Shown here piece by piece: positions 13,284-34,400 of a stretch of DNA of 64,000 bases (positions are counted from its first letter, which is position 1; every line of letters starts with the position of its first letter). The notes under the pieces are model-generated. The model was given only the letters and a program-made list of their open reading frames with translations. It ran no database searches and was not told the DNA's origin. The stretch covers positions 8,554,501 to 8,618,500 of the forward strand of contig WPIO01000001.1 in NCBI GenBank assembly GCA_009760855.2. The letters run 5' to 3'. A program made the position numbers and the translations under genes. Source of the stretch: Cristatella mucedo (lineage: Eukaryota; Bryozoa; Phylactolaemata; Cristatellidae).

Positions 13284-13480
<197 letters not shown>

Positions 13481-13904
13481 AGGGGTCCAACAAAATTTCC
13501 ACCCTCAGCTCTCGAATAGTTAAGGTTCGACGCAGACTTTTGTGAATCCGCCCCAATAAACAAAAAGCCGCACCCTCTTCTGGAAGGGGAACCCCTGGAT
13601 CTGCTCTTCGTCGAATACTCGCCGCTCAGAAGCACTCTACAGTCTCTTCCAAGGAGTCACTGCGTCTCGAGATCCTCCATTTTGGAGAGCCCTGGCTTTG
13701 TGCTGTCGGCACGAAGACCCGGACGCATCTTGAAACCCCATCTAACGAGAAAGTGGTGCACTGCGTTTGGAGAGGCTGGACGTGTGTGCGCTCGCTCAGA
13801 CTGTGTTACCCGGCGTATTTGTCTAGCTAGCTTCATCGAGAGAGGAAAAATGGCTAGCTCCTAATTTAAATAGCCTCATTTAAGCTGCGTGCCTTTCATT
13901 AGAC

Positions 13905-14229
13905 TAGTGGCTCTCAACCTTCCTAATGCAGGGATCCTTTAATACAGTTCTTCAAGTTATGGCGAGCCCCAACCATACAAATATTTTCGCTTCTACTTCA
14001 TAACTGTAATTTTGCTAGTATGAATCACAATGTGAATATCTGATATGCAGGATATATTTTCATCGTTACGAATTTAACATATTTAAAAGCGTAGTGATTA
14101 GTCACAAAAAATACGCAATTATGGGAAAGGACCATCGGTAATGCGTGTTTTCCTATGGTCTAAGGCGACCCCTGTGAAAGGGTCGTTCGACCCCCAAAAG
14201 GGCCACGACCCACAGGTTGAGAACCGGTG
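13905..14229 (+). mobile_element. SPIN-like non-autonomous hAT transposon
   Basis: A 325-bp element with terminal inverted repeats TAGTGGCTCTCAACC and GGTTGAGAACCGGTG. It is flanked by 8-bp target duplications CATTAGAC (13897-13904) and CATTAGAT (14230-14237). Internal blocks in order include CCTTTAATACAGTTCTTCA, CTTCATAACTGTAATTTTGC, AATATCTGATATGCAGGAT, TAGTGATTAGTCACAAAAA and GGCGACCCCTGTGAAAGGG. These agree with what I remember of the SPIN (Space Invader) family, known for horizontal transfer among tetrapods and some invertebrates. No transposase frame is present, as expected for the short derivative. Boundaries are firm; the family name rests on memory of the consensus. Confidence 0.88.
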
Positions 14230-14237
14230 CATTAGAT

Positions 14238-22493: not shown

Positions 22494-25400
22494 CTGAGCA
22501 CAAGAAACGAACTTCCGTCGTCACATCGCAGAAGGCACAACAGCAGCGGCCGAAAGGACAGGATCAGATTGCGGCTGGCCCCATTTCAGCAGCTGCAAAA
22601 CTGGCAGGCTGACTTGCATGGGGAAAACCTTGCAGTGAGAAGAGCCGTGCACTCGCTGAGCGCATGGCCCGACAGTGGCAAAAGACTTCCCACCCAAAAG
22701 GCATGTTTCGCCTTCCCTTTCGAAGTCTGCCCAGCAATAGCAATGCCAACAAAGAAGCGATTTCTGAATGCACACTAGATTGCAGAAGTAAAAGCATGGC
22801 CAACGTCCACATCTTGCTACTGTTCACCTACAACAAGCTACGGGAGCGCAACGACCTGCTTTGCGCTACTCCTACTATCCAGGAGTGTCGAACCACATAT
22901 TATTAGCTCCATCAGTGAAGTAGCACACCCATAAGCATCTTCATAGAATAATTTGTCCAGAAACTGATATTTAGTGCTCTTGCTGCTTCCGATGCAGCTG
23001 CTACTGCTACGTCTGGTTCTGTTTCATACGTTCCACGTGACTACTCTCACAGCTGCAAAAATGCAGACTAAGACCAGAGGCCACAAGCAAACGCCCAGAA
23101 GAAGTCACACGATTGTGTTGATTATCCCTAATCTTTATTGCATCTGTCTATCTCGGGTAAGCTTTCACTACCGTGATCCACCGATCTTACTAGCACAGAC
23201 AGACGGGGAGGGGGCAAGTTGACATGGCTGGCCAAAAAACACTATTCACTTCAAAGCCACGACATAGCAGTCCCAATTCCCAAAGAAGGGAATTTCAACA
23301 TTTCCGACTTCGTGGCACCAGCTAACATGCTCTGAATTAGCTAACACCCTTTCTAAGCGGGGTAGGTAGAATTTGACGAAACCCTGACAAGGCTCATATG
23401 CCTGTACACACTCTATGTAAGCATTACACCAACTTTTGGCATGACATCTCCTGCTTTAAAACGATAGGCAAATAGCAGATTCTGACTCGAGTGTTGACTT
23501 GACTTTGATCGAGACTAACAAGCGATAGTGCAGCTGCGTGTGGACACGGGTATTAGGCAGACTTACACCGAAGGCGCCGGCGGTGGTAGCAGGTCTTTAG
23601 ACCTCGACAGGTTGTCCAGTACTTGGACGATGGCAGCAAACCGAGGACGCAAACCTCGCTCCCTCTGCCAGCAGCGGAGCATAAGCTGGTGGATGGCCGC
23701 AGGACAGTCCTGTTGGCAAAAAAAACACTCAGAAACGTGTTTCTGCTACTGCATGCTCAGAATAGGCTGCAGCTCGTCAGCTAGTTGCCCAATGTCTGTG
23801 CCCCCTCTGCTGCTTCTGCTTGAGCTGCAGCTGCATTGTTGGAAAATGAGCAGATCAAAATATGCTGCTCGAGTGAACAGATCTAGATTGATCAGAGTGT
23901 GGAGCCCAGTTGTAGTATGGGGGAATCAGCTTTGCTTCACAAAAGAGCCATCCACAGTAATCCAGAGCCTGGCTGTACCTACATAAGCTAACAACTCAGG
24001 TGATTGGAAGGTAGGGGGAGCTGGGAAGGACAGAGAAAGAGAGGGAGAGAGAGAGAGAGAGAGAGAGGGGGTACTAAGGAGAGACAGGCAGAGAGCACGA
24101 GAGGCAAATATACAGTCATCAAAACTAGCTGGGGTGAGGGAGAGAATATGCCGACACAAATAAATAGAAATAGGGAAACGAAACAAACACTCAAGCAACA
24201 CAAAGAGAAAGAAAGCAAAAAGAATACAGAGAGACAGGGAAAGACTGAGACAGGAACACAAATAGATAAAAGGAGAAACAAAGACAGATGAAGAGGCAAA
24301 GGCAAGCAGATAGGCAGGTTGACAAACAGATAGACACATACTGCCTCTGCTGGCATTGCACACAGCAGCTAAGCAAGTCCTGCAGACTCCTGCTTACCAT
24401 CGGTGCTGGCAGCCGGTAATCTTGCTCCACAGCCTTGATGACGTCATGGTTCGACCAGTTCCAATAAGGGCGTTCGCCATAAGACATGACTTCCCACATC
24501 ACCACACCATAAGACCACACGTCCGAAGCAGTCGTGAACTTCCTGTATGCTATGGCCTCTGGCGCAGTCCAGCGAACCGGAATTTTACCACCCTGCCAGA
24601 CAGTCAAGAGAACCAGTGACCAGTGAGGCAATGCCCATCGCCCATTTGGCTGTGGCAAGTGACAAGCAAGCAGCTAGGAAGGAAGTAAGTGCCAAGCAAT
24701 GACGAACGAAGGTCGCCACCGAGTGATGCAGGCAGGCAGCAGCTGTCCAGCCACTTACCCGAGTGGTGTAGGCTCCCTCGGACTCGTTGTACTCCACCTC
24801 ACGCGACAGGCCAAAGTCGGCCACTTTGCACACCAGTGTGGCACTGACGAGGATGTTCCTGGCAGCCAGGTCGCGATGCACGTAGCTCATCTCGGACAGG
24901 TAGTGCATTCCCGAGGCAATACCTCGGAGCATGTTCAGCAGCTGACCGAGGGACAGGCAGCCATCGTTCGCCTGCTCGCGAAAGAGGCGAGGCTGCGACG
25001 TGTGAGAAGGCAAAGGCAACCGGGGCACCTGCCCCCCCCCCCATAGGGAGAGCAGCTCCCTGAGCAGCGACCTCCGCCCCAGCACACAGGAAGTGACAGA
25101 AGAAGCAGGTGACTGCTAGCAAAGCAGCCGCACGTCCAAGTCTCCGCCCATCGTCCACCCGAAGGACCGTGCACTGGTATGGTGGGCCTGAGGCGGCACT
25201 CACCCGAAGGAACGTGTCCAGCGAGCCGTTCTCCATGAACTCGGTGACGATCATGATCGGGTTGGCCTTAGTGACCACGCCCTCGAGGAAGATTATGTTA
25301 GGGTCGCTGAACTGGCCCATGATGGATGCCTCGGTGAGAAAGTCGAGGCGGCTCTTCTCGGACGCTCCGCCCTTCAGGGTCTTGATGGCCACGATCGCAT

Positions 25401-28400
25401 CGGACGAGCCAGGCAGCCGCAGGATGCCACGGCAGACGTCGCCAAACTCACCGCCGCCGATCACCGACTCGATCGTGATGCACGAGGGATCGAGCTCCCG
25501 TGCGAACTCGCGCACGGCATTGCGCGGATCCTCGTACAGGTGCGGGTCGACGTATGTCTTGCCGGGCCGCCCGCGGATGCTGCCGGCTGTCACCCCCATG
25601 ACGCTTGACGGGAACAGCGGAGCTGCAGAGGCTGAAACGGCGGCAGCAGGGTGGTGGTGCAGGTCTGCGCAGACGGCGACAGTGTGGCACGCGGCTGAGC
25701 AGAGCATCGTAGCCAGCATGTTGTCGGCAATCCAGATCGTCCCTCGACGGCGCGTCGATTCGCTTCGCACCGGGCGCATCTGCCCCAAGGCACGGCTCAC
25801 GCCTAGCGCCCCCAAACCGAGAAAACTGCAGCCGAAACAATCGGCCGCCGACCGATCGCAGGCCGCTGCAGTCCGAGAAAAGAAAGGGGCAGCAGCAGTG
25901 AGAAAGGATTAGCTGAGCACGACCAAGGAGAAAGAGGGCACGAAGGAAAAAAGGCTCGTCCTCCAAAAGAGCTCCCGGCGATCGGAAGTGCAGAGATAGA
26001 ATGGATGCCCTGCCATTTCCAGCGGGTTCCTCGGCCGGCTATTGTTGCTGCTTGTTGTTTTTTGGGAAGGCGCCAGCCCTGCGGCAGCCATGCTGCTGCC
26101 TGCGGCTGGCTGGGGCAGGCGGCATCCAGTGGTGTGGCCCCAGGCTGGGTCGGCTCAGCCGAGACCACCACAGCAGGTAGCCAGCCAGCTGCTCAACCAG
26201 TGCATGGCAGGTGGTTGCACGCGAGGGGAGGCACGGGCTAGCAACGATAATTTCCCAGTCCTCCTGTGCCGCCTGGCGTTCCGCCGACGAGCAGCAGCAG
26301 CCGCTGCTGCTGGCGCATACTCACGGCCGTCGAATGGTGGCACGCTCGGCGTGACCGGCGACTGTGGCGCCGGTCGATCTGCTGCCGCAGCCGCGGCTGA
26401 TGCTGCCGCTAGTGCTTCTACGCTGCGGCCCAGCATGCCGGTGATGGCGGCGGTGCTACTGCTGCTGCCGGCCAAGGCCGAAGCTAAAAGACGTGCATGC
26501 ACACGGTGCGCCAAGTGGTGCCACTCACACTCGTGCTGCACGACAAAAGCGCCGCTGTGACCAGCTCAGCAGGGTGACAGTGCTCTAGAGTGCGTGCAAG
26601 AAACCGTGGCACCGGTAAGAGGGGGGAGGGGGTCAGTGTCACGTGCCGGCTACGTTTAAGCAGTAAAAGCGCAACACAACCCGTCTGCCCATCGAGAGGA
26701 GTCCGCGGTCTCCTATCATGGGCTAGCTCGGCAGCAGTCGAGTGGGGCTGCCGAGTGGTCGGTGGTGCCGCACATGCCTGCATGCTAGCAACCAGCTGCA
26801 GGCTTACATGTAGTGCGCCACGGCTGTGAGGCGCCGTAATTGGCCTGCTTTGTTTTGCTGCAGCAGCCACGTGTTGACAGGATGCTGTGTATCAGCTTGT
26901 ACACGGTTGCACAGCTCGACTGCGGCTCGCCATTACTGGACCTGAGAACAATCAATCGACATGCTGTGCCCCCCATCGACGGGACTTCCTCGGAACAACA
27001 CAACACAAGGCGGCAGGCAGCACGATTAACAGAGCGCCCATTTGGCAACAGGTTCTGTTCACTTTTACCTCACACACCAGGGTGCTGTGCACACAGTGCT
27101 AAGGACATGCAGGCAGGCATGTGCTTCCCGTAAGGCGCCATGCCATGCAGACACTTCCTATGAGGGTACATAGCACAGGCACTCACTCACAAGGAAGCCG
27201 GATGAACACCCTAATGTAGGTCAACTTGTGGGACGGTCTCAAGGACGGCAGCTACTCGATATGGAGAGCAGACAGCCAATGGCTAGCCCAAGCAGACAGT
27301 CCTGGTTCAGAAACGTAGTTATCCTGCCTTTGTTTGCACTAAGCAGACAGCCCGTAGCCGATTAATGTTAAAAACAATAATATTTACCTCAAATCGTCTT
27401 TGCTCTCGTTGCTGTACATGGGCACAGGTCTGCTGTCGCCTGGCTCCCCTCTGGCAAAGGAATACTTGGAGGACTAGGGGACTCGATCAATGCTCATTTA
27501 CTCACATGCTGAACTCGAGCTGGTTTGGTCTAGCGGTTAAGGTGCTCGCCCCGACCAAGGTCTGACTGAGGTCGTGGGCTCGAGCCCTGAGGCATATGTG
27601 AAGTGCCTGAATAGAGATTAAGTTCTCTTGGGGCGCTATATAAATGAATTATATAATTATAACTCGATTAAAGAGAGGCGAAGTGCAATCAGATGAAGGA
27701 TCAGTCGTTGGTCCGAAAAATATCATGGATTTGAAAACAAGGGAGCCAATATTGGCCAGTCATTATGTATATAATCTTGTCACACTATCTACCACTGGTC
27801 GTTGGCAGCTAGCAGGCTTTGGTAAGACAATGGCGGCACTCAGACAATCGGCCGACACCGGTATCCTATTCCAACCCACCATGCCCATTCTGCGAGAGCT
27901 CTCTCTTATGCTTAGCGCTCATGCAATCTCCACTCCTTTAGGTCAGCTTGGAATGAAATTCACAGATCAGCTGTCTATGCCACGAAGAACTAATTATTGT
28001 ATCTGGCTCTGAGGATTGACTATAATAGTAATAAACTCATGCTGGTGGTGTGGCTTCCTGTGAGCTGCACGTGTCGAAACCTTTTTGAGAGCAAAATCCT
28101 CAACAAACTGCATACAAACGGCAATCTGCAGACAGGCAGTAATATCCACACAAGATGACAATTTTCCATGAACCGGTTAATGTACATCTTACCGTTTCAA
28201 GTACACTCTGCAGCATGAGCATGGCGCATGTCACAGCAAAGTCAGCACTAGCTTAACGCTAGTTCGGATGGTGGGCAGCAACAGCAGCAGCGCAGAATGC
28301 AAGCAAAGCTCGAACGAAGTGAGTTTCAAATCGAAGCACAGTTTTTGGGGCAGAAGTCTGCGGGGCAGAAGTGCAGACTGGCATAGCAGACCGGCAGTAG

Positions 28401-31400
28401 GCTGGGCTGAGACAATAACCGGATTAGCCACAGCTCACGAGTGCTTATTTCGGAGACAATGTGAGAGATAACGAAGGAGCAGCAGTCGCTCAGCACTAGG
28501 CAGCAGCAGGAGAACCGGCCAGCTGGCCATGAGTGTTAGCTAGCTCGTGACCAAGGTGCCGAAACTGCCTCTGACTCAGCTGATGAATGACGAGAGAAAG
28601 ACCGAGCACAGTGGCCACACTGAAAAAACCGGCTGCCAGCAATAGTGCTGCTCACGTTCAGCACAATTGGTTTCGGGTGCCCCCCCCCCTAAGCAGGTTT
28701 GAAGCAGCTAGCCAATGGAGGTGCAGGCGAGCTGCTGTAGAGGCCATTGCTGGCTGGATGGAGCAGCCATAGAGGAGGAGGCTTCGAAGGAGGCCACTAA
28801 ATTATGCAAGGTGGGTGCAGCACTTTGGTTGCTCAGTCACTGAGGATTGCTCTGGACATTTGCATACGAACGAGGTGTCAAATAGGCCAGTCCTGGGGGG
28901 GGGCCGACGTCTGGGGTTTGGGAACTGTTTCGGTGTGACAAGACAATCAGCAAACCCCACCCCCTCAGATCTTCCAAAGGCAGTTAGTTGGGCCACTTGA
29001 GAGGTCAGCCTGAGCAGCAGCACTTGAGCCAGCAGTCGGGCACTGGTTCCTTATACCAGGCAAAACCACCAACCAACCTCCTCCCACCCCCACTAGTTAC
29101 GCTGGGATTGGTCAGTCTACATTGGCATGGCTCCTGCTCCCTTGCACGCTCGCGAGCTTGGTGTGGTCCGCGGAGGAGGCAGCCGACTCGGCCGACGTCT
29201 GCCGATGGCTTTACCAGCGGACTCATGAGGGCTGCGACCGGACGAACAAGCGTGGCACGACCTAGCCCAGGTGCCAGCCTGTGCGGCGGCGTACCTGCGG
29301 GCCAGCGTGACCATGATGATGACGACGATGACAAAGACGATGCCCATGCCCACGATGACGGCCACGACGGCCACGACTATTACCGTCGTCGTTGCAGTCG
29401 CAGTCGGCTCGCTGGTGGTGCTGAATGCCACCTCCTGGCTGGAGGACACCAACTGGCCGCCAGAGTAGCTCGCCACCTGCTCGCGGCCAAGTGGAGCGGT
29501 CCAGCCGACGGCTCAGTCGAACGACAGGAGGGGCATGCATGTAGACCCGGTCGCTGCGATGCCGCAGGCACAGTAGGAGATGTGAATCTCCTTGCATTTG
29601 CAACAGCAGTGGCAAAAGTATAAGCACTGCACCTATAAATGATGCAAACTAGCACTCGAGCAAGCCCAGAGGCTCGCGATGACTCAAACAGAAGGGTAGA
29701 CGTTTGCCATTTATATAAAAGCAGTTCAGACACAGGCTAATTCTCTTTGAAAAATCAAGTCGTGATGTCTTTTATTTAGTCCGAGTTACTCCAAAATAAA
29801 GTTGGTGCTGGTGGTGCTGGTAGTCCATTATAGGAAGTTATTCTCTGCTGTATGGCGCCCTCTACATAGATCGGTTCGTGCCCACACTCTGACATTTAAA
29901 CACCCATAATGCCCTTGTAAAGAAGAAACACCTTTCCGATAGGACCTTGAGCAATATCAAACGTAGCAGACTGATGAAGCATGGCTTCTAGCTCAACTTT
30001 AAGGCAAAGTGGGTTCTATTTTCGTTGTGGACACCAAATTTAAAAAGACCTGTCTCTTGTGCTATCGTATGACCTATCGCTGTTGGGCTCCTCCCCTAAT
30101 ACTAAGCAACTGCATTCATACTGACGGCACGACTGCCATTCTCTCACGATCTCACCCAAATTGTTCAGCTTAATTTTCCACAATGGCCAAAAGACTTCTC
30201 TGTGCCAAGCAGAATAGTCAGAAAGTCACTGTGCAATGAATACTCGGCGACTCGGTAGTGAGCGAAATAGTCAGGCATAATCTGACAAGGTTTGCCTGCT
30301 GCACAGGTTGCCTACATTAGCTTGCCGATATATATGTGCTTGCCGACTCTGCTCTTCCCCAGGGCTGTTTTTCACGGTACTGAATCAATCGAGGCCTTGG
30401 TTTGTCACACTAAACGTTCAACGAGGGAGTTCGAAGGTAAACACTCATCGCTAGGAGCTTCGCACACAGCCGACTAGCAGAGGTGACAGCCGGATTCTGG
30501 CACCGACAGCCCAGGGTAATAAAAAAGGCTGTAAATCACCGAGAAGGGCCAGACGACTCGATAGATGACTGACAAGCCCTCGGCAGGAAGTTGATCCATC
30601 CAAGAGCAGCTAGCAGAACAGCTTTCGGCAAGTCACCCCTCATTTCTATGCCTAGCGATCATCAGCTGCGCTTTTTTTGGGGGTGGGGAGTCGCCTCTAT
30701 TCGATTGACTAGCCTGACTGGCCAAGAAATCGGCAGGCTACTTTTATCCAGCCATAAGCATATCCAGCATTTATTAAGCCACGGATGAAGTCATACCTTA
30801 CCATGCTCAGATCAGCCAGTTTAGCCGCCTGAAGGGGCATTCTTTATGCTTGAAATGTGGGAGTTACAACCACTGACAACCCTGCTACCTGAATTTCCAA
30901 CAAAAATGGCAACTTTCTTCAGAATGCTTCGTTGTTGCTGGAGCAGCCGTCCTCGAGCAATCTGCTGTACAGCAGCAGTGCAGTAGCAAAGCCAAGAGGG
31001 CAGGGAGGCATTTGCCCCCTCCCAAAAGCAGGGCAGCGACTTGGGTCGCCCCCTAATCCTACACACACCAATCCTCCCCAGACCATCACCTTGGATGAAA
31101 TTGTGTCCTAATTATGCAACCACCGAGTTCGTGTTGAATAAACACTACGATTTTGCAATACAATTTTTCAGTTATTTCGGGTCTCCACCACACATAAAAA
31201 TAGTATGGATCTTCCCCCCCCCCCCCCCCCCCGATGCAAATCCTGGCTCTGCCTCTGGAGGATTAGGTACTGCTGGCTGATTGGAACAGCCTAGAGGCAT
31301 TACCTTGAAATAGTATATCATGGCTGGCTTCAGGCCGAATATGGTCACAGACTCAGACGTCGAGTTCACCACTTTGACCACTGTCGAGTCGGCTGTACGA

Positions 31401-34400
31401 TAGGTAATTGCATACATGTCTGCATACGGAGTCGGCATCCACGAAAATGTGATGGCTGTGCTGTTGGACTGAGGTACCAGCAGTGCAAAGGAGCCGGCTG
31501 CAGCCGAGCCTGACGAAGTGGTCGTAACTACCGCGATGGCCGGCATGGCTGCCAACAACGACATTTTGGTGACGCCGTTTGTTGAAAACACGGAGAAGTT
31601 GTAGGTGGTGCTCGAAGATAGACCGAAAACGCTCACCCTGGTGACAGTCAAGCCCGTCTGCATCGGTGCGTAGGTGACCGCCGGCGGGCAGGCGTCACAG
31701 ACGACGCTGTAGAGTACGTCAGTACGGCCGCCGGTGTCAGTAGGAGAGAGCCACGTCAGAGTGACCCGGTCGGACAGCACCCCAGCGGCTGTCAGCGAGC
31801 GCACCGGCGAAGGAGGACCTGTGGCCAGTACAAGCAGCAGTGAGGTGATCAGCAGCAGTCTGCCCAAACCTGTGGCAGGGGCGCCGGCGGGCGAGGCAAG
31901 CATGGCCGGCGGCACGGCACACGGAGCACTTGAGCCGGTCGTCGAGGAGACTTATTTCCAAAATGACCAAGTGACTATGACAACACCAAACTATTAAGGT
32001 CACTGCCTCGGACTGATTCTCGACCGGAATCAGACGAACGTCGGCCTACAGTGGATGGTGAAAGACGTGATTCGCGTATGGCACCGATCACGTCTTTTCT
32101 CCCGGTGGGGCGTAGCAGGCTGCTTGAGCTACATCCTGCTGCACCAGGCTAAGCAGCCACAAAACGCTTACCTACAGCCTACACTGAAAAAACGGGCACT
32201 ATAATAACAATAATAACAGTAATAATAATAACGAAATTTGTATAGTGCCCTCGAAGAACTAAGTCTCTTTCTAGGCACTGCACATGTGCTGCAAAAGAAG
32301 CTCGTCAACTGATAAGTTATAGCATGCAAAATGTCAGGACACTAGGGGCAATTCACTCGGCCGGAGCCAGGAGCGGACAGGTTTCTAGCTTCTTTTTTTA
32401 ATGTCGTCAAGTCAGGGGATGTCGTCAAGTCAGTCGGGAGTGAGTGCCAGGCTTTAGGGGCATACGAACTAAAGGCACAGCTGGTCTCCAAAGGATTTGA
32501 GGTTCGTGCGAGGTGTAGCTAAACGATCAGCAGTGCAACAGAGCAGCCTGCAGCCGAGCTTGACGAAGCGGTCCTAACTACCGCGATAGCCAGGACGGCT
32601 GCCAACGGCGACATGTTGGTGACAGGCAAACTATAGTGAGCGCTGTCGTCAACGACAACGTCTTGCTTACGGTCGACTGGTGGTTGCAGCAGTGGAAAGT
32701 TATAGCAGAGAGCATGAAACTCACCTTGCTCTTTTCACAGCAATCTACTAATCAAAAGACTCGGCCCTACATCTCACACAGTATATAGCCACAAGATGTC
32801 TCCCCTTTGCCTATTTCCAATTCGTGACCTACAGTCAAGAGCTTTGGGGTGGCAAGAGGGCACACTTCGAGGTGGCAAAAGTTGCTGACTACCCTCTGCC
32901 GAGCGAGGTAACTGTCTGCTACTAGCCAAACGATGCCGACAGCAGCGGCTGATGTCTCGGGCATGAGAGAGGACCCGCAGCACCTCTGTGAGGTGCAGGG
33001 AGATGGTGTTGGCGCAGCAGTGTAGGGAAGTGTTTTGCGAATCGATTGCAACGAGTCAGCAGCAGTGTGTCTGCAGAGAGGCAATGGCACCACTCTACTT
33101 TGTATGCAAATCAAGATGATAAAAAGGCTGTTCGTCTGCTAAGGCAGCAGTCTGGAACCTTGATTGTGACACCTTTCACACTAGCATGTAACAGCATCCA
33201 TTTGGGAATCACCATTTCATATCCCAGAGGCAAGGCGCTCACACCTCATACCCAGGTCGTGGGCTCGAGTCCTGAGGCAGGCAATTCTGCATTGCCTACT
33301 GCAATCAGAGATGGATGATTACCATTAAAGCTCTTCTGCTGCTCTATATAAATGAGGCTGTTGAACCAGCTGACCTTTATTATTGATCACCAAGTCCTTC
33401 TTAAGTACCTCTCATCTTCCCCAGGGCATCAGTTTCACTTCACTGCTATGATTTAGGTACTATCAAAGTGGGGGATTTCTCAGCAATTATGTCAACGGTC
33501 AACCCGGGAGCCTTTAAAGCATGGAATATACCAGGAATCTGCACTTGGTCCACCTCTTTTCAAAATGCACATGCTTAATGCTGATTTCATCGCCAAGCGC
33601 AATTTAGACTTCTTTTTTATTCCCATGGCATGCAGTTGTACCTGTGCTTTGATTTTTCCTTGCCTTCAAGTACGTCAAATACTAAACTCTCTTGCTGCAT
33701 GTATTGCTGACATTCGCACTTGGATGTCAGCAAATTTTCTCAAGTCGAATGACGATAACACCAAATTACCAGTTATGGACAAACCTTTTTATTATTCAGA
33801 AATTGGAAAGCCTAACCCACAGAAAATAGGCTTAGCCAACATGTCTCTTGTAGTGTCTGCACGAAATCCAGGCATCCTGGTATATAGCAGTCTTTTGTTA
33901 GATGAGACATCAGCTCCATAGTCAAGTCTACTTGCTTTTATTATAGTGCAAAAATTCAGGAACAGTGATCCATAGATTTAAGATATACTCTCTAGATTTC
34001 TGTAACTCACTGGTTAAAAAATCTTCCTATCCATGCAATAACATGCTTACAGTTGGTGCAAAATTCCGTACAGTTGGTGCAAAATTCCGTACAGTTGGTG
34101 CAAAATTCCGTAACTAGGTTTGTCTTGCGTGCATGCTGCAACTGCCAAATTGCATCACTGTTCATCAACCTGCACTGGCTCCCCCATCGGCAGCGTATCG
34201 ACTTCATGGTTTGGTCACTCACTTTTAGGTCACTTCACTCTCTGGCCCCAACCTACCCATTGGAAGTACGTCATCATTAGGATGCAAATCGTACAACCCA
34301 CCCTCTTTCGACATGTCATCTAGCTGTATCCATAACCGAAATTAAATCCGTTGAAGTCAGTGTCTTTAGTTTGAATGCTACTAAGGCTTCGAGCTCACTC

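Follow-up and report, generated by a model that had tools for sequence, protein, structure and literature searches.

SPIN is the textbook example of a transposon that has passed between animals far apart in the tree, among them mammals, reptiles and a few invertebrates, and it is a family distinct from TcBuster and other Buster-group hATs. These Buster-group relatives have an 8-bp TA-centred target, a BED-type finger and hAT-like blocks, features that the family described here appears to share. Close known systems are the SPIN_NA elements of mammals, whose mouse copies (URR1) are about 225-240 bp long, and two from invertebrates. In the bug Rhodnius prolixus, SPIN_NA_12_RP and SPIN_NA_13_RP are ascribed to horizontal transfer from vertebrates, and SPIN together with three other transferred families reaches up to about 98.1% identity to the vertebrate ones, according to the relevant passages of PMC11614815. 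PMC5440852 describes a hAT element of the freshwater snail Biomphalaria glabrata that has about 1,000 copies, shows 'significant identity' to SPIN and has no intact transposases in that assembly. SPIN-type elements have thus been published before from invertebrates, one of them a lophotrochozoan (PMC11614815, PMC5440852).

The locus studied here lies in a window of 64,000 nucleotides, within a 24.8-Mb contig of a host assembly of 572 Mb in 688 contigs. Judged by its sequence, the element in the window is well supported as a SPIN-type hAT MITE, and its extent of 325 bp at 13905-14229 is exactly that given by a sequence-only reading of the same DNA. The element and its parts are as follows.

13905..14229, + strand: element well supported as a SPIN-type non-autonomous hAT element (MITE), 325 bp, K2P 0.116 from the family consensus
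13897..13904, no strand: left 8-bp target site duplication, CATTAGAC
14230..14237, no strand: right 8-bp target site duplication, CATTAGAT, 7/8 identical to the left
13905..13920, + strand: 5' terminal inverted repeat, consensus CAGTGGTTCTCAACCT
14214..14229, + strand: 3' terminal inverted repeat, 12/16 complementary to the 5' repeat in the window copy
14126..14166, + strand: degraded subterminal hairpin, its ends in the window set by eye

The 8-bp flanking duplication with one difference that had been read from the sequence is present, CATTAGAC and CATTAGAT agreeing at seven of eight bases. The terminal repeats, given as 15 bp in the same reading, are worn to 12/16 bp in the window copy and stand at 15/16 in a 321-bp consensus of 40 copies. 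Searched for inverted repeats, the window copy yields a single 12-nt arm pair at 92%. The subterminal hairpin has a long stem in the family consensus, CCTAAGACCATCGGAAA paired with TTTCCGATGGTCTTAGG in a fold of consensus positions 201-270. We take the terminal inverted repeats CAGTGGTTCTCAACCT to be SPIN ends, the identical letters occurring in a mouse Ate1 primer, and the order of the internal blocks to be that of mouse SPIN. BLAST found no second copy of the element within the window. About 430 bp before the element there is a CT dinucleotide array of 98 units (window 13284-13478), and the minus strand carries ephrin receptor exons at 24802-36137, with kinase, EphA2_TM-type segment, fibronectin III and ligand-binding domain.

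The earlier reading had tied its proposal to further copies in the host genome, and such copies are numerous. The element's 5' 33-mer, with up to three mismatches, occurs at 1273 places in the genome, as against none for the reversed control, and the 100 places listed are spread over 51 contigs. A DNA search with the element, in which the best 40 of 2041 candidates were scored, gave at least 41 match rows in its own genome; 41 rows were fetched as 40 loci, and a majority consensus of 321 bp was built from these 40 copies. The divergence that had been proposed for measurement proved to be about 10% from consensus, with a mean K2P of 0.10 (range 0.054-0.147; window copy 0.116), a mean that may be low for the family as the 40 copies had been ranked by BLAST according to their likeness to the window copy. 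Changed bases made up 14% of CpG positions and 9% of others. Both ends are present in 31 of the 40 copies, and at least six of the eight duplicated bases are kept in 23 of these 31, compared with 8.1% for mismatched left and right pairs. Insertions are centred on TA, at sites that approximate nnCTAGnn: on both sides, 27 of the 31 complete copies have T at position 4 and 29 have A at position 5. An 8-bp TA-centred target is the target type of SPIN, a member of the Buster group of the hAT superfamily.

A shorter form is also frequent. Twenty of the 100 listed 33-mer places, all of them exact matches, were chosen by hand, and 15 of the 20 hold an element of 170-191 bp, mostly consensus positions 1-81 joined to 229-321. 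With a 1-base shift permitted, 11 of these 15 retain at least six of the eight bases of the duplication, against 14/210 for mismatched pairs compared without the shift. Among the other hand-chosen places, three have no 3' end within the sequence retrieved, and the remaining two hold copies of 144 bp and 456 bp. A second estimate of divergence from the same places gave a mean of 0.095, with one copy at 0.189; it covers the 10 of 20 copies whose alignment, leaving aside the 33-mer, exceeds 150 bases, the other 10 being dropped because the local aligner halted at the internal deletion.

Longer copies lead to the presumptive source of the mobility. In one copy of about 640 bp (L069), additional sequence separates the two halves of the consensus, and this sequence as a query gave 28 rows in the genome. 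From these rows we selected three combinations of a left and a right match, separated by about 2.5-2.9 kb, and fetched them as L087-L089. L087 is 3288 bp long with a target duplication of 7/8 and L088 is 3110 bp long with one of 8/8, while L089, at 2956 bp, has no target duplication visible at its flanks. All three share both ends with the MITE, the ends being 88-91% identical to the consensus, and they are 77-85% identical to one another across long aligned blocks. Each contains pieces of one and the same protein gene, which runs antisense to the MITE and is broken in every copy by stops and frame changes. Full-length transposase copies, which had been suggested as a search target, were thus sought, and no intact one is among the copies seen. 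The longest open transposase piece, P0001, has 192 aa (L088:1087-1662:+). It gave 13 match rows in the genome: seven close ones (at least 45%) at five loci, one at 33% inside one of these close loci, and five distant ones (27-38%) at five other loci. The close loci other than its own are all short or stop-bearing. Sequence retrieved for three of these distant loci encodes hAT-like proteins, two with zinc-finger N-termini; two of the three hit zf-C2H2_12, one of them above the Pfam cut-off. Aligned with distant hAT-type proteins of the same genome, P0001 is 25-32% identical and both zinc-finger histidines are aligned. The LDESTD, TDGAPAM, VRWLS and C-terminal blocks of the SPIN transposase pieces are, we assume, hAT-like. 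Pfam found no hAT domain in any single SPIN transposase piece tried, and PDB searches with three of the pieces returned no transposase. No relatives of P0001 and no exact SPIN patterns were found in viral_contigs or genome_contigs. Other hAT-type genes of the genome (L110-L112), distant kin of the SPIN transposase, have open frames of up to 468 aa.

Mouse DNA printed as primers provides a comparison with tetrapod SPIN. A text search over 5.39 million papers with exact 14-15-letter words of the element led to a genotyping primer for Fem1b, designed on mouse DNA, in the primer details of PMC12319709, and to two mouse Ate1 primers, given as an identical pair in those of PMC2767504 and PMC2837401. 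As printed there, the Fem1b primer agrees with family consensus positions 10-32 at 20/23, the terminal Ate1 primer with the consensus 3' terminus at 18/19 of the bases inside the element, and the second Ate1 primer with the consensus 3' subterminal hairpin at 18/20. The primers as printed differ from the consensus at six bases in total, five of them at CpG sites; shuffled primers reach 14-16 matches at most. The Fem1b and terminal Ate1 matches are partly selected, since the search words led to both, and chance matches do occur, the Fem1b primer matching 19/23 elsewhere in the window. The Ate1 hairpin primer played no part in finding its paper, and in the assay as printed the two Ate1 primers lie side by side, arranged as their matching sequences are in the element. 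The Ate1 primer pair is the strongest printed evidence for SPIN identity. By these primers as printed, mouse SPIN_NA shares with the host family the terminal repeats, the adjoining 5' sequence and the 3' subterminal CCTAAGACCAT; the forms found here measure 321-325 bp and 170-191 bp and so differ from it in length. Three further oligonucleotides, seen in the primer details of their papers, were set aside and are uncounted. A Vps18 primer found in the same way (PMC3418201; 17/21) and a chick zic3 primer (PMC2908108) were judged to be chance or promoter tail, and the third, designed on mouse (PMC11247941), to be another element.

A provisional mouse consensus, written down after the window copy had been read, was aligned with both sequences. 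Against the family consensus it agrees at 142/147 and 75/75 bases (217/222), a single gap of three bases intervening; against the window copy it agrees at 129/147 and 70/75. At many private changes of the window copy this mouse consensus has the letters of the family, so mere copying from the window does not account for it. The SPIN identity proposed from the sequence is well supported by the mouse primers and the provisional mouse consensus together; identity to the provisional SPIN letters is well above the 75% below which the earlier reading would have looked to another hAT family.

The nature of the host bears on what this likeness means. COX1 on a 21,008-bp mitochondrial contig reads AGA as Ser, ATA as Met, AAA as Lys and TGA as Trp, which is table 5, a code that excludes vertebrates, tunicates, echinoderms and flatworms. 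The genes nad5, nad4, nad4L, cob, nad6 and nad1, recognised by eye, are all encoded on one strand and tRNA-Thr and a tRNA-Pro on the other, presumably the arrangement of molluscs and related lophotrochozoans. A nuclear copy of the mitochondrial DNA, 96-97% identical and without about 520 bp of COX1, lies in a 5.6-Mb contig, and the mitochondrial DNA is therefore the host's own. The host is an invertebrate and probably a lophotrochozoan. There is a second, older-looking nuclear copy of the mitochondrial DNA, at 75%. The mitochondrial contig itself (C688; 21 kb, 44% GC) contains sequence repeated in direct as well as inverted orientation, with identical ORF or tRNA calls near 3.1, 11.7, 13.8 and 20.7 kb.

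Taken jointly, these data are very probably explained by a SPIN MITE that was moved by the transposase of a 3-kb SPIN element, in a family that has since become extinct and that arrived by horizontal transfer. The element would be a MITE, a non-autonomous copy with an internal deletion, derived from SPIN, a cut-and-paste transposon of the hAT superfamily. Both ends are common to the MITE, to the elements of about 3 kb, whose degraded hAT-like transposase gene has a zinc-finger N-terminus, and to the deletion forms of 170-191 bp and about 640 bp. Transposase from intact 3-kb elements would have excised the short forms by their terminal repeats; the excised copies would have inserted at 8-bp TA-centred targets, so that the target was duplicated. 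To judge by the divergence of its copies, about 10% from consensus, and by the broken state of the transposase pieces seen, the family would then have died. The near-match of the noncoding consensus to the mouse one suggests that the family entered the host lineage by horizontal transfer; near-identical noncoding DNA in mouse and a protostome, with copies about 10% from their consensus, may be read as the usual mark of such transfer. If a neutral rate of 2-5 per billion sites per year is assumed, 10% would correspond to about 20-50 million years. That span would fall in the range for tetrapod SPIN.

Vertebrate or other contamination, or misassembly, which the earlier reading had named as an alternative, can be given almost no credence: the 33-mer is found at 1273 places, the 100 listed sit on 51 contigs, the copies have private mutations, 23 of 31 complete ones have their own duplicated flank, and the contig of the window is 24.8 Mb long. 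It is also quite improbable that the family is a different Buster-type hAT of lophotrochozoans, old, vertically inherited and merely SPIN-like. Related transposases at 27-38% identity elsewhere in the genome do indicate that the group is resident, but the Ate1 primer pair, as printed, fits both internal and terminal sequence of the consensus, the provisional mouse consensus agrees with the family at 217/222, and copies only about 10% from consensus are too young for vertical sharing with mammals. Within the preferred explanation, a SPIN element that arrived by horizontal transfer, the transfer might have run from an invertebrate, or a shared parasite or vector, to the tetrapods, with the host lineage nearer the source. 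We consider this unlikely, though less so than the two preceding alternatives; the large copy number and the several deletion forms beside copies of about 3 kb fit a long local history without requiring one, but direction is unreadable from one genome, and no evidence here favours this direction over the reverse.

The Rhodnius SPIN, as described in the passages of PMC11614815 that concern it, also resides in an invertebrate, whereas the present host is probably no insect; the two are likened by description. The Biomphalaria glabrata hAT, compared likewise by its description in PMC5440852, resembles the present family in having a lophotrochozoan host, about a thousand copies and no intact transposase; the two genomes are likely to be different ones. 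With the present genome, a case of DNA transfer among animals that was known already extends to one more distant invertebrate, and its large, dateable family with near-full-length transposase relicts offers a new leaf for the transposase tree, on which direction and timing might be read. Rather tentatively, we suggest a SPIN wave in a lophotrochozoan lineage beyond the freshwater snails and triatomine bugs, possibly a marine one, with more than 1000 copies, about mammal age and near-full-length relicts. If so, the host genome could help to place the donor and the aquatic leg of SPIN's route.

Another hAT family of the genome was considered as a mobiliser of the SPIN element and rejected, a SPIN end being found in 0/38 of the hAT loci searched, 30 of which extend only 1.5 kb past the domain, so that the far 5' end could fall outside. 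This family is the most abundant hAT of the genome, making up 62 of the 138 Dimer_Tnp_hAT rows (those above 73 bits), and 32 of the 38 loci carry it, 98-100% alike across the main aligned stretch. Several of its rows have open frames of over 600 aa, and the family has probably been active recently.
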